The notes below the pieces were generated by a model. The model did not search any database and was not told where the DNA came from. It saw only the letters and a list, made by a program, of their open reading frames with translations. From NCBI GenBank assembly GCA_963921795.1, contig OY997645.1:18542865-18606864 (forward strand): a DNA stretch of 64,000 bases, read 5' to 3'. Of this stretch, positions 1,469-61,897 are shown piece after piece. Both the position numbers and the translations under genes were made by a program. Each line of letters starts with the position of its first letter. Positions within the stretch are counted from its first letter, which is position 1. Origin of the DNA: Nannobrachium achirus (Eukaryota; Chordata; Actinopteri; Myctophiformes; Myctophidae).

Positions 1469-1729
1469 ATCGTTGTTGTCGGGTGGAAACCTCGTATCTC
1501 CAAGTTTCAAATGTGTACGTTCTTTCGCAAAGCAAAGCCCTGCTTCATCATTCAAGGCCGTTGCACAAAAGTAGTGAAAACAGCTGATCTACAAGCACAC
1601 AACGCCTCGCTGTGCGAGGCGTTGTGTGCTTGTAGATCGGCTGTTTTCACTAGTTTAAATCATTTTTAAAATCATAAACGCAAAACGAACGGTTTTGGAC
1701 ATACAAGGTTTTCATCGGACAACGACGAT
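1469..1729 (+). mobile_element. MITE family M1, copy A (hairpin-bearing, about 260 bp)
   Basis: The ends are inverted copies: the left begins ATCGTTGTTGTCGGGTGGAA and the right reads the complement of nearly the same sequence, extending through the AAACCT-GTAT-TCCAA block (about 30 bp with mismatches). The centre is a strong palindrome at 1572-1652. The same order (left end, AAGCCCTGCTTCATCA block, palindrome, AAATCATTTTTAAAAT block, ACGGTTTTGGACATAC, right end) recurs at 53101-53573, 54557-54779 and, reversed, 61641-61897. It has no coding capacity. I could not fix the target duplication, so the superfamily is unassigned. Confidence 0.85.
1572..1652. repeat. GATCTACAAGC palindrome, copy 1
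   Basis: Arms of about 38 bp pair with one or two mismatches around a CTGTG loop. From outside in: TAGTGAAAACAGC, the shared core GATCTACAAGCACACAACG, then CCTCG. It lies at the centre of M1 copy A. Confidence 0.95.
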
Positions 1730-2504
1730 GTATTAGTATCTTGAGTTTAATATCAACCACAGTCATACACAGGTTTTCCGATAATAAGGACATGAGTTTA
1801 TCACAGCAGTTACTTTGGCACTGATGCCGCTATAGCTATAAAATGTATCTACAGAGCAGCCACACTCTAGAATCCAGGATAACACTGGAATATTAATGTG
1901 CATGTAGATGATACACCGGCTTTTACTATGTAGGTCATCCATTCAATCTCAAAACTTATGGGAGGAAGGCATGTGGTGAGACTGTTGAGCTGCATGCTAA
2001 CTGTTTACTTGACATGGGTCTCTGTTTCTCAAGGTGGCAAACAAGATACCACGACGCCGCATTGAAGTGAGGGAACAAATTGTGGGCTGGAATTGTTTGG
2101 GGCTTTTTGTCAGCACGTGTGGGGAAAATCTAAGTTGACGTGCAGAGGCCGCGTCGGCAATGGTGTCAGACGCCGCCGATCACACTGCAGGCGTGTCTCA
2201 GTTGTCACCGGGCGATGGACGAGTCTTGAAAGAGTCTTAAAAACCGAATTTTGTCATCTTGTCATGTTCCTTCTAAACTGCCCTGTTATCTTATGGAGCC
2301 TTTCACCATGCATTCCCACCTCCGCGCGCGCACCCACCCTCTGAAATACCGCCAGCACTTAAAATGCAAATATCATATCAGGCCCAACCTACTGTATATG
2401 GCAGCCTGTTAAAAGAGGCATTTCTGTAGATAGAGATTATTGAATAATTTATTGGCAAATCCAATCTACAAGCCACAGGGGAGAAAGGGGAGAAAGGGTG
2501 GTGC
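1730..2504. other. No gene seen
   Basis: Unique-looking sequence between an M1 element and a GT array. Small open frames have no domain, splice or codon-use support. Confidence 0.55.
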
Positions 2505-2626
2505 GTGTGTGTGTGTGTGTGTGTGTGTGTGTGTGTGTGTGTGTGTGTGTGTGTGTGTGTGTGTGTGTGTGTGTGTGTGTGTGTGTGTGTGTGTGTATGT
2601 GTGCGTGTGCGTGCACGTGTGCACAC
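2505..2626. repeat. (GT)n microsatellite with impure tail
   Basis: About 46 pure GT units to 2596, followed by interrupted GT/GC dinucleotides ending GTGCACACG. Confidence 0.97.
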
Positions 2627-3883
2627 GATGAGACTTAAACTGGGCTTCAGGAGGAATACCTTGTCTTGGTCTCGTTACAAGGAATGATTGGGAAACAGAT
2701 CCGGGCCTCTGGATTCATTATCTCACACACAGAAGCATGCTTATGGCACGAACACCTCCGGTACCGATCACCTGTCAGGGCTTCCACACGGGGGATGTAT
2801 TTATCGAGACAAAATGAATGGAGGGGGAGGCAGGGCAAATGAATAGTTTGCCTCGTAAACACCTTTGATTTCAGGTCTCTCTCCAAGTATGACAACCATT
2901 GGTGGTGGTTGTGGGGGGGATGACGTTAGATGCAATTAAAAGAAACGATGGGGGAGTAATCACTGGGTGCCAGCGGCTATCGCCTCCATTGATGTGTCTG
3001 AAATATGCATAAGGAGAAGGTGATAGCCCAGACCCAGGTTCAGGCCTCTAATTAAGGGAGAGATGCCCCTCAGTAAGTCAGCCGTCATGGCAACGAGGGG
3101 GAGAGTAAACGCTGCGGGGGGATATGCAGGTTCGGTCAGCAACTTTACACGAAGTAAAGATGCATGTACAATCTGGGAGACACTCACTCACACACGCACG
3201 CACGCACACGCACGCACATGTGGATTGAAAAATGAAAATAATGCTCAAAGCATGCATGTGGAAATAGCTTTAATGAAAACTTTATGCTAGGATACACGCT
3301 AAGCTATATGGCTGAGCTGATGTCCTGCAACTATTACACACTTGTGTTTTTTCTTTCTCTTTTTTTCCTTTTTCAAATGATATCAATAAATAATGCCAGC
3401 GGTGTCAACGGGTGTGACTGAAATGAGAATCAGATTTGGTTTTTCACTCCCACGTTTCACTGTTGGTTTCTGGTCTTCTATTTTTGAGGCAAATTTAGGT
3501 CACGACTCACAAGGTAGTATTTTTAAACATCGGCCCCTTTGGCCAATGTCTGCCAGCCACGATAAATTCAACCAGGCTTTTTCGTGTTAAAAACGTTCCA
3601 CTCTGTTCTTCACTATCGGTTCCTGGTTGTGTTGTGATGTTATATGTTTGTAGTTCTGCTACTGTTCTGCTATTATTTTTAAATGTTTGAAAGTGAAAAG
3701 GGTTACGTGTGTCAGTGGGGAGTGGGTTTTATAGATATTGGAGAAGAGAATGGGAGAACTTGTCCGTTAAATAGTTCACAGTTCACGTTAATCGGGTGCA
3801 CGGTTCTGGCAGAAACAGTATATTTGTAAAGATTACCAGCACTTGGGTACCAGGTTTCCATTCAGACATATCCCCATTCCGAA
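2627..3883. other. No gene seen; short CACG-rich tract
   Basis: Contains a degenerate CA/CACG simple repeat at 3181-3220. The rest has no recognisable gene or mobile element. Confidence 0.55.
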
Positions 3884-3992
3884 CACCAGGTTAGCATTCA
3901 CCAGCGTCGGCAGGTTAGCATTTCACCAGGTTAGCATTCACCAGCATTAGTTTTACTGAGGTTAGGGTTAAGGTTAGGTTAGGGTTAGGGTT
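3884..3992 (+). repeat. Telomere-like module, copy 1
   Basis: Three CACCAGGTTAGCATT-type units, one with the linker CAGCGTCGGCAGGTTAGC, are followed by TTTTACTGAGG and degenerate (TTAGGG)n from 3961. The same module recurs at 6281-6418 (reversed), 7644-7772 and 29649-29790. This is an interstitial degenerate array, not a chromosome end. Confidence 0.85.
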
Positions 3993-4360
3993 GACAGAAT
4001 AGCAATGAGTAACCCAGCACTTGGTCTCTTATTTATTGCAGGCCCATCAGCAGATCAAACACTGGCAGTTTGATTTATAAATGTGTCCTTAAATCTTAAA
4101 TCAGACAATAATACAGTGCATTAATAATATAGCTTGAACTTGATACCCAATTTTGACCCACATGAAAAATAACTTGATTTATTCACACTGAGTGAGGCCT
4201 AAAAACGTCGGCGTTTGATCAGCTAATGGGGCTTCTGAATAAATAAGAGATCCTAAAAGGAAGAAGTAAGTGCTGGTGATCTTTAAAAATAACCAATCAA
4301 AAATATTAACAAGAGCTTGTGACTATATTACATTAGATCTATTGGAACCATACATTGGAA

Positions 4361-60215: not shown

Positions 60216-60275
60216 CAAAAATAGCAGATCTACAAGCTAGTGCCGCGCTGCGAGCTTGTATATCTGCTATTTTTC
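60216..60275. repeat. GATCTACAAGC palindrome, copy 13
   Basis: AAAAATAGCAGATCTACAAG and matching right arm TTGTATATCTGCTATTTTTC, with an asymmetric centre CTAGTGCCGCGCTGCGAG. Confidence 0.92.
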
Positions 60276-60649
60276 AATAGTTAAAGCACAAAATAATGTG
60301 TTCCCGGTCTAAATGGGGTTAGACCCCCTCCCCCTACGAAGAACATTCATGGGGGGGGGGGGGGGGGCCGCAGTGAATCCTTGGCTTGTACCCAGGGCCC
60401 AGAATGTGGTGTGACACCCCTGGCTGCAGTGAGGCTGTATGTAGCGATGGCGAGGCATAGTTCCACAGCGAGCAGTAGCCTCCTGTCCTGTGCTGCAGAC
60501 GACTGGCCTTCTGGTGAGTTACGCAGTGCAGTGGCATACAGTTGACTTCATTAGTGGGTCCCTCCCTTCGAGGGTGACGCGATATATTTACTACTGCGCC
60601 GGGCAAAGGACAGATGCTCCTCTCCACCTATCACAGAGATGTGATGTGT

Positions 60650-61254
60650 ACTGGGGGGGGTGTGTGCGTGCGTGCTTGTGTGCGCGTGTGTGTGTGTGTG
60701 TGTGCATATAAAAGGTATAAACAGATTGAAAAATTCTGTTGTGTGCCAGATATGATGGCCCGTGGTACTATGCTTACATGTTTGCTTTGATATTTGATCC
60801 AGTGTAAATTTATGATGAAATGAAAGCCTGAAATAACACATTTCAATGTGTGTGTGGGTGTTTGTTTGCGTGTGTGCTTACGCTGGTGGGTTTGTGTGTG
60901 TGTGTGTGTGTGTGTACGCATGCTTCTGGAGTGACTGAGTGGAAACAGACCGTTGAGAGTATGTATTTGTTAGTGTGCGCGTGTATGTGTGTGTGTGTGT
61001 GTGTGTGTGTGTGTGTGTGTGTGTGTGTGTGTGTGTGTGTGTGTGTGTGTGTGCAGGCACACAGGCATGCTTTATTTTTTGTCGAACAAGCTTGTGTGGT
61101 GAATATTTGTTTATTAATTAATTAGTATGTGCGTGTGTGCGTACATGCGTGTGCATGCTTGCTTATACCTGTGTGTGTGTGTGTGTGTGTGTGTGTGTGT
61201 GTGTGTGTGTGTGTGTGTGTGTGTGTGTGTGTGTGTGTGTGTGTGTGTGTGTGT
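60650..61254. repeat. Cluster of GT microsatellites
   Basis: GT-rich arrays at 60660-60705, 60850-60916, 60987-61053 and 61171-61254 separated by short unique spacers. Open frames through them are Cys/Val artefacts. Confidence 0.95.
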
Positions 61255-61640
61255 CAGCACATTAGCAGCAGTACCATTAGCTTCTGCTTGTCACATCTGA
61301 TGGCTCTCTCTGTGTCTTTCCTTATCACGGCCTGACGTGGAGGAGGCTATTAGTGGTTACAGGGAGGCGGGTAGCAACTGAGGAAGAGAAGCAAAAGAAG
61401 CAGAGAGAGGAAGAGTAGAGAAACAGACAGGCAAGAGAAACAACCAAGAGAGACGGCGTAACAAATGAAATAAAAGGATACAAAGAGGAAGAGACAATAC
61501 GAGGCAGAAATAGCGAGACAGAGGGAAAAGAGTAGACTAGACAGACTAACAAAGATAGGGGGAGGGAGGCGGAACGCAAGAAAAGACACAAGGAGACAGA
61601 CAAGGGACGTGGTGGGCCCCTGATTCATTTTTTTTTATTT
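61255..61640. other. Purine-rich sequence, no gene
   Basis: GA-rich, weakly repetitive (AGAGAGG, GACAGAC) from about 61380 to 61610. Confidence 0.5.
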
Positions 61641-61897
61641 TGTCGTTGTCGGGTGGAAACCTTATATGTCCAAAACCGTTTGTTTTGTATTTATCATTTA
61701 AAAATGATTTAAACTAGTGAGAACAGCCGATCTACAAGCACACAACGCCTCGCACCGTTGTGTGCTTGTAGATCTGCTGTTTTCACTACTTTTGTGCAAC
61801 GGCCTTGCCTTGTATGATGAAGCAGGGCTTTGCTTTGCGAAAAAAAATTATAAATTTGAAACTTGGAGATACGAGGTTTCTGCCCGAAAATGACGAT
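61641..61897 (-). mobile_element. MITE family M1, copy C (reversed)
   Basis: Starts TGTCGTTGTCGGGTGGAAAC, then TATGTCCAAAACCGTTTG, the hairpin at 61715-61788, the reversed GATGAAGCAGGGCTTTGC block, and ends ATACGAGGTTTCTGCCCG-AAAATGACGAT. Unit order is the mirror of copy A. Confidence 0.87.
61715..61788. repeat. GATCTACAAGC palindrome, copy 14
   Basis: TAGTGAGAACAGCCGATCTA and CAAGCACACAACG pair with CGTTGTGTGCTTGTAGATC and TGCTGTTTTCACTA. The centre CCTCGCAC keeps only part of the inner stem. Confidence 0.94.

Follow-up and report, generated by a model that had tools for sequence, protein, structure and literature searches.

A small hairpin palindrome shared by several MITE families of Nannobrachium achirus and bounded by TA in one of them

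A palindrome of roughly 75-85 bp, almost perfect and without a spacer, recurs in different miniature inverted-repeat transposable elements (MITEs) within a stretch of 64,000 nucleotides from the myctophid fish Nannobrachium achirus (assembly GCA_963921795.1, contig OY997645.1, positions 18,542,865 to 18,606,864, forward strand). This whole stretch is referred to below as the window. A sequence-only reading of it had reported 14 palindromes with the core GATCTACAAGC...GCTTGTAGATC, and we found all 14 exactly where it had placed them, together with a decayed fifteenth copy and a partnerless single arm that it had overlooked. The hairpins (h1 to h14) and their hosts, named by letter or by the position of the hairpin, are the following.

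1572-1652: hairpin h1, 39-bp arms and 3-nt loop, in an M1 copy at about 1469-1729
4604-4688: hairpin h2, in hAT MITE B (4361-4822), duplication CATTGGAA/AATTGGAA
11324-11400: decayed fifteenth hairpin, host not recognised
12259-12285, minus strand: lone hairpin arm
12520-12940: hAT MITE C, duplication CTCTCAAC/CTCTCAAC, with hairpin h3 (12621-12701) and part of element E
14800-15203: hAT MITE (the 15011 host), duplication GTATAAAG/GTATACAG, with an inner element E that holds hairpin h4 (15011-15066)
14935-15103: inner element E, ends TTAACCACTTGAACC and GGTTTAAGTGGTTAA
24700-25262: hAT MITE D, duplication GGAGGGTG/GGAGGGTG, with inverted hairpins h5 (24788-24866) and h6 (25115-25191)
36928-37383: family J hAT MITE (CAGTGGTG...) with duplication GTCCTATG/GGCCTATG; no intact hairpin
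41411-41533: small foldback TAATTTGTTGC..., with decayed hairpin h7 (41429-41510)
51821-51998: shortened B copy, with hairpin h8 (51876-51955); duplication 6/8 only, by eye
52680-52740: hairpin h9; its right flank, to about 52794, matches the tail of element E
53206-53266: hairpin h10; its host, at about 53101-53575, is a diverged M1 copy that holds a further insert
54643-54701: hairpin h11, in an M1 copy at about 54566-54778
59849-60422: second D copy, duplication GCTGCAAT/GCTGCAGT, with hairpins h12 (59938-60000) and h13 (60216-60276)
61715-61788: hairpin h14, in an inverted M1 copy at about 61640-61897

The consensus of the arms is approximately AAAATAGCNGATCTACAAGCTCACAACGCCTCGC, and several window copies have shrunken centres. 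With up to two mismatches, GATCTACAAGC occurs 36 times in the window, compared with a mean of 16.4 (standard deviation 4.2, maximum 27) in 100 shuffles. DNA folding of three copies gave z scores of -17.4, -12.2 and -8.4, the first of these for the best copy, h1 (-50.9 kcal/mol). When RNA energies were used, z was -3 or lower relative to base shuffles in 13 of 15 copies (the 14 and the decayed one), the exceptions being those at 41429 (z -0.4) and 52680 (z -2.5). A covariance model, a check proposed by the sequence-only reading, was trained on nine of the 14 window copies and recovered all 14 at E values of 6.6e-27 to 0.0012, nine being its own training set, as well as the decayed fifteenth copy at 0.0028; the latter was also matched by blastn with D as the query (E value 5e-6). 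Since window palindromes unrelated to the hairpin reached an E value of 3e-5 in the same scan, as good as or better than the weakest copies, weak covariance matches alone prove nothing. A possible further lone arm, GGTCTGCTATTTTTCAA, lies at about 1085-1105.

The hairpin is abundant far beyond the window. In the 1,658,514,493 bases of the genome that were searched, a scan likewise proposed at the outset, the exact arm pair separated by 4-34 bases was present at 82,497 places and the reversed control at none; this control and the window shuffles rule out chance palindromes. Twenty 10-kb stretches at hand-picked round coordinates (188,350 non-N bases) contained 44 matches at an E value of 0.01, which corresponds to about 387,000 genome-wide including decayed copies, although the weakest matches may be other palindromes. 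By eye, the 44 were assigned to D (9), M1 (8), B (5), J (4), E in the 15011 hAT MITE (2), and C, G and K2 (1 each), with 13 unassigned. Twenty further exact copies on one contig, also sorted by eye, comprised J (7), E-type (5), K (2), K2 (1) and others (5). Family J is hAT-like (CAGTGGTG...AAAAAGTA) and its copies elsewhere carry the hairpin; the window copy was considered as a clean empty site and set aside as ambiguous, part of an E end being left in a rearranged region. Three head-to-tail hairpins with a 43-base period (G000:C1:469826-469952) resemble the start of a satellite. A known RNA gene was rejected, no Rfam match at gathering score being present in the window. A viral or prokaryotic origin was also dropped: the exact palindrome is absent from IMG/VR, where a 17-base half-site has three matches without the second arm, and two exact matches in a prokaryote collection were taken as chance.

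Five hosts have terminal inverted repeats (TIRs) together with 8-bp target duplications that match at seven or eight positions: B (CAGTGGTTCTCAACC ends, 7/8), C (TAGGGATGGGACGAT ends, 8/8), D twice (CAGGGGCGTCAC ends; 8/8 at 24700-25262 and 7/8 at 59849-60422) and the 15011 host (CAGGGGTCTTTTCAGG ends, 7/8). On the strength of these ends and duplications we take all four families to be hAT MITEs. A de novo scan for ends with 8-bp duplications returned six elements, three of them with the hairpin, compared with 1, 1, 0, 0 and 0 in five shuffles. Each copy of D contains two inverted hairpins. M1 is present in four copies, among which no target duplication was established.

When the hairpins were removed, M1 had no significant similarity to B, C, D, h7, h9 or the 15011 host, and the h7 foldback was similar to no other host tested. 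B and D were similar (z 5.7 and 4.1) through a piece of hAT end between D's hairpins, and B and the 15011 host had similar ends (z 2.9, 1 of 150 shuffles as high). C matched the 15011 host (z 5.3; about 80-90 bp in common beside the hairpin), which in turn matched h9 (z 8.2; a common 37-bp tail), and the remaining significant pairs were copies within one family. D is a composite, since the end of another hAT element sits between its hairpins; the piece at 24943-25038 is a hAT right end, 77% like 34751-34843. The window hosts are thus not one family, yet they are not all independent either: extra flank from element E is common to C, the 15011 host and the 52680 copy, so not every host represents an independent acquisition. 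The earlier description of the hosts as different families stands for M1, and the DNA of the hosts outside the hairpin is largely unrelated. Similarly, the 8-bp duplications from which independent mobile units had been deduced are present in five hosts, but the independence of all five host families is not fully supported, and the 52680 copy, thought to be free-standing, is not clearly so, its right flank matching element E.

The tail common to the 15011 host and h9 terminates in GGGTTNAAGTGGTTAA, and the 15011 hairpin sits in an inner TTAA-ended element, E, itself within the hAT MITE. TTAA is the mark of piggyBac elements and TA that of Tc1/mariner. The E end was sought in the 130 bp outward of 63 hairpins (126 flanks, from the window and fetched genome loci). 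With up to three mismatches it was found pointing outward in 16 of the 126 flanks, belonging to 12 of the 63 hairpins, and facing the other way in one, and 62 of 4000 random 130-bp stretches contained it, so that about two would be expected. Outward and opposite counts were 9 and 1 at two mismatches and 25 and 5 at four, in a test that is partly circular since the motif was derived from some of the same copies. Facing pairs of E ends numbered six, at five loci in 288,403 bp, compared with two wrong-way pairs. All five loci with complete pairs hold the hairpin (in one, which an insert interrupts, this was assessed by eye), and three (L014, L017 and the window) are the same composite, so the independent cases are fewer than five. 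TTAA stands at both E ends of the five loci, with up to three mismatches over the 15 scored bases, and is changed in L017.

C holds a truncated E. Judged by eye, D copies elsewhere in the genome carry E ends, and one locus (L019) contains the inner part of D without the hAT shell. B was also considered as a carrier of E and rejected, no E end being recognised by eye. Since C, the 15011 hAT MITE and the 52680 copy share the E flank and D copies carry E ends, part of the hairpin sharing reflects a TTAA-ended MITE that lies nested in hAT MITEs. Among copies of the 15011 composite, the 8-bp flanks are CTATAGTC on both sides in L036 and L041 (identical, and perhaps not independent), GTCTGGAG/GTCTAGAG in L042 and GTATAAAG/GTATACAG in the window; L037 is a poor match and the ends were not reliably located at the remaining loci. 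At L046 (about 519-570) some 40 bp of the left E flank is, by eye, inverted on the right beyond the hairpin, as if copied back. In G000:C4:58639859-58996333 the 15011 hAT flank recurs fourteen times at spacings of about 20-40 kb, suggesting an array of large repeats.

M1 occurs both with and without the hairpin. A query made of both M1 flanks joined by one TA yielded 1749 candidates, and each of the 40 that were scored crosses the junction with 0-15 extra bases; such a query favours clean empty copies and gives no estimate of how frequent they are within M1, and remnants may persist in the longer matches. In the six best, which were read individually, there are no bases between the TAs (6/6) and the junction is GCACAAAAGTAGTTTAAAT, with one mismatch in L068. 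At the same point the hairpin-bearing copies have 55-77 bases between the TAs (9/9). Since empty and filled copies differ in this way, TA (or TAGT) repeats delimit the hairpin in M1 as a discrete unit that was either inserted or cleanly deleted. Identity was 0.822 among M1 copies with the hairpin, 0.910 among those without and 0.853 between the two. Of the suggestion that the hairpin is itself mobile, what is supported is that it forms a discrete TA-bounded unit in M1, a pattern that insertion and clean deletion would produce alike.

The two arms tend to change together. In nine aligned copies a two-sided change was present in 28 cells, compared with 12.7 after shuffling and 3-8 in slid controls. 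Less telling were the counts of pairs changed on both sides (12 versus 8.6; as high in 24 of 500 shuffles) and of pair types (25 versus 23.4; as high in 149 of 500). For 73 model-aligned rows, where the alignment was fitted to the structure and most palindromes entered on both strands, two-sided cells numbered 227 versus 90.2 (slid 20-58) and pairs 19 versus 16.7 (58 of 500). The decayed M1 hairpin h10 has T in its left ATAGC arm and at the GCTC position of both arms, and h1, h11 and h14 carry at h10's T positions the changed base in both arms. Beyond the core, the arms of one hairpin match each other and not the arms of other families: the outer-arm extension averaged 4.45 over 16 families, against 1.45 when permuted (maximum 3.34, 0 of 2000 as high), with 48 of 83 hairpins usable. 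Ongoing correction of the arms after insertion is not supported, mean identity being 0.846 between arms of the same copy, 0.885 between arms of different copies of one family and 0.791 between families, and one stem base at which the arms agree in 25 of 58 also counts against it. The stem base next to GATC is unpaired in 40 of 73 rows and its neighbours pair in nearly all; the stem mismatch was tried as an orientation mark and discarded (G/T in 25 of 58, versus 21.4 expected for independent arms). According to an excerpt of PMC8794818, template switching creates and repairs such stems, and therefore selection is not required for the paired changes.

We propose, at about even confidence, that the hairpin is a spacer-less palindromic passenger of MITEs that came into M1 at TA and was carried into several hAT MITEs within TTAA elements. 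Its entry into the M1 family would have been at a single TA, giving TA-GTGAAAAC...GTTTTCAC-TA, the M1 difference being taken as an insertion and not a clean deletion and the movement being credited to a putative TA-type transposase. The hairpin would also have been resident in short TTAA-ended MITEs (element E), and E-type elements would then have nested in the hAT MITEs C, D, the 15011 host and J. Each composite would be amplified by the transposase of its host, making the hairpin abundant. B, G and K carry the hairpin too, presumably as an acquisition, and snap-back template switching could produce the concerted change of the arms.

Several observations weigh against this proposal. The role of a transposase in it is inferred, none having been linked to the hairpin and no search for transposase genes lying behind it. 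An M1 copy that had lost the hairpin by deletion between the TAGT repeats would look the same as one that had never received it, and the filled and empty M1 copies are interspersed in a weakly supported tree. The ends of the palindrome vary by host (the bases outside AAAATAGC), unlike those of a transposon with fixed termini, and no consistent direct repeat is present at the edges of the 14 window hairpins. The E-end signal weakens at five mismatches (39 outward versus 19 opposite). Finally, of the empty sites that the sequence-only reading had called for, those of M1 were found and a single-TTAA site of the 15011 composite was not, among the 42 matches listed with 40 of 1237 candidates scored; the query joined the flanks with one TTAA and only two matches touch its right half, so such a site could be missed. 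Apparent edge direct repeats in two D copies (p 0.02 and 0.00) were set aside as incidental, being an asymmetric TTTTTCAA repeat.

A bolder form of this proposal, possible though doubtful, is that the hairpin is a minimal transposon: two inverted repeats of about 80 bp in all, with no spacer, inserting at TA. It would live mainly as a hyperparasite inside other non-autonomous transposons and have reached some 100,000 copies by riding their amplification, and snap-back copying would match its arms and extend them into sequence specific to the host.

It is also conceivable, if rather unlikely, that the hairpin is abundant hairpin-forming DNA, immobile in itself, which MITEs obtained from one another through template switching, gene conversion or the filling of gaps and which each host then amplified. 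The hAT piece between D's hairpins and the truncated E in C would fit such capture, as would h9, which joins an M1-like left arm to an E-like right flank, and outer arms that are family-specific and self-complementary are expected from template switching. Capture junctions are usually less clean than the M1 difference, which is exactly TA-bounded with no extra bases and so speaks against it. Gap-filling capture by TIR elements is documented in animals, according to an excerpt of PMC8277862.

Repeated loss of an ancestral hairpin from M1 and other families, by clean deletion between short direct repeats, we consider improbable. The TAGT repeats beside the M1 hairpin, the interspersion of empty and filled copies and the many copies with shrunken centres are in its favour, but it leaves the sharing among unrelated families unexplained. 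More improbable still is that the hairpin was kept because it aids its hosts, for example in replication or transposition, so that families carrying it win. Its abundance (82,497 exact places) and the paired arm changes would suit such a helper; however, hairpin-less M1 is abundant, the J copy of the window has no intact hairpin, and template switching can give paired changes without selection (PMC8794818, excerpt). Descent of all hosts from one ancestor with diverged ends can practically be dismissed, since M1 without its hairpin has no significant similarity to any other host tested and much of the extra sequence common to C, the 15011 host and h9 is a nested inner element and not ends, even though the B-15011 ends (z 2.9) and the B-D segment (z 5.7) are similar.

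Other repeats in the window include a second, different palindrome (core GGTATGGCAACATGACTGG) at 14218-14285 and 63292-63337, just inside the ends of two CAGGGGCGTCAA-type elements (about 13003-14308 and 63265-63800). Nested in the first of these is an element with ATGGGACTACSGTCAT ends at 13528-13766, flanked by TATGTCAT/TATGACAT.

Four known systems bear some likeness to the one described here, as far as excerpts of the papers concerned describe them. In the MER6/MER6A MITE with the V domain of a fish short interspersed element (SINE; PMC6887750), a short foreign sequence was also multiplied inside a MITE, but in one host family and with a SINE-derived, non-palindromic domain, unlike the single palindrome in several families found here. 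The zebrafish Angel MITE (via PMC12628747) is likewise a fold-back element, whose amplification was proposed to be driven by hairpin formation, but it is one family for which the excerpt describes no cassette passing between families. Yeast mitochondrial GC clusters (PMC4478555) merge and shuffle, but are mitochondrial, GC-rich and free-standing and are not transposon passengers. Pack-TIRs (PMC8277862) are TIR elements, mostly hAT and Tc1/mariner, that take up foreign internal DNA; these are mostly single-copy captures, in contrast to one tiny sequence in many high-copy families. No evident report of one hairpin common to several MITE families was found in the titles and abstract openings of the papers listed by searches of an open-access library, and the novelty of the core relative to Repbase and Dfam is provisional.

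For annotation, repeat libraries clustered on the core alone would wrongly merge unrelated families. Candidate autonomous relatives, if present, would be PF13843 genes that carry TTAACCACTTNAACCC at their ends, or Tc1/mariner genes that do so with GTGAAAATAGC. The M1 copies with and without the hairpin make its entry directly testable in related genomes, and the outer arms, specific to each family yet self-complementary, lend themselves to tests of whether template switching is what keeps palindromes matched. If the hairpin is indeed a discrete unit that entered many MITE families, it would mean that the internal DNA of MITEs can itself be parasitised, and that a tiny palindrome without genes can rank among the commoner repeats of a genome.

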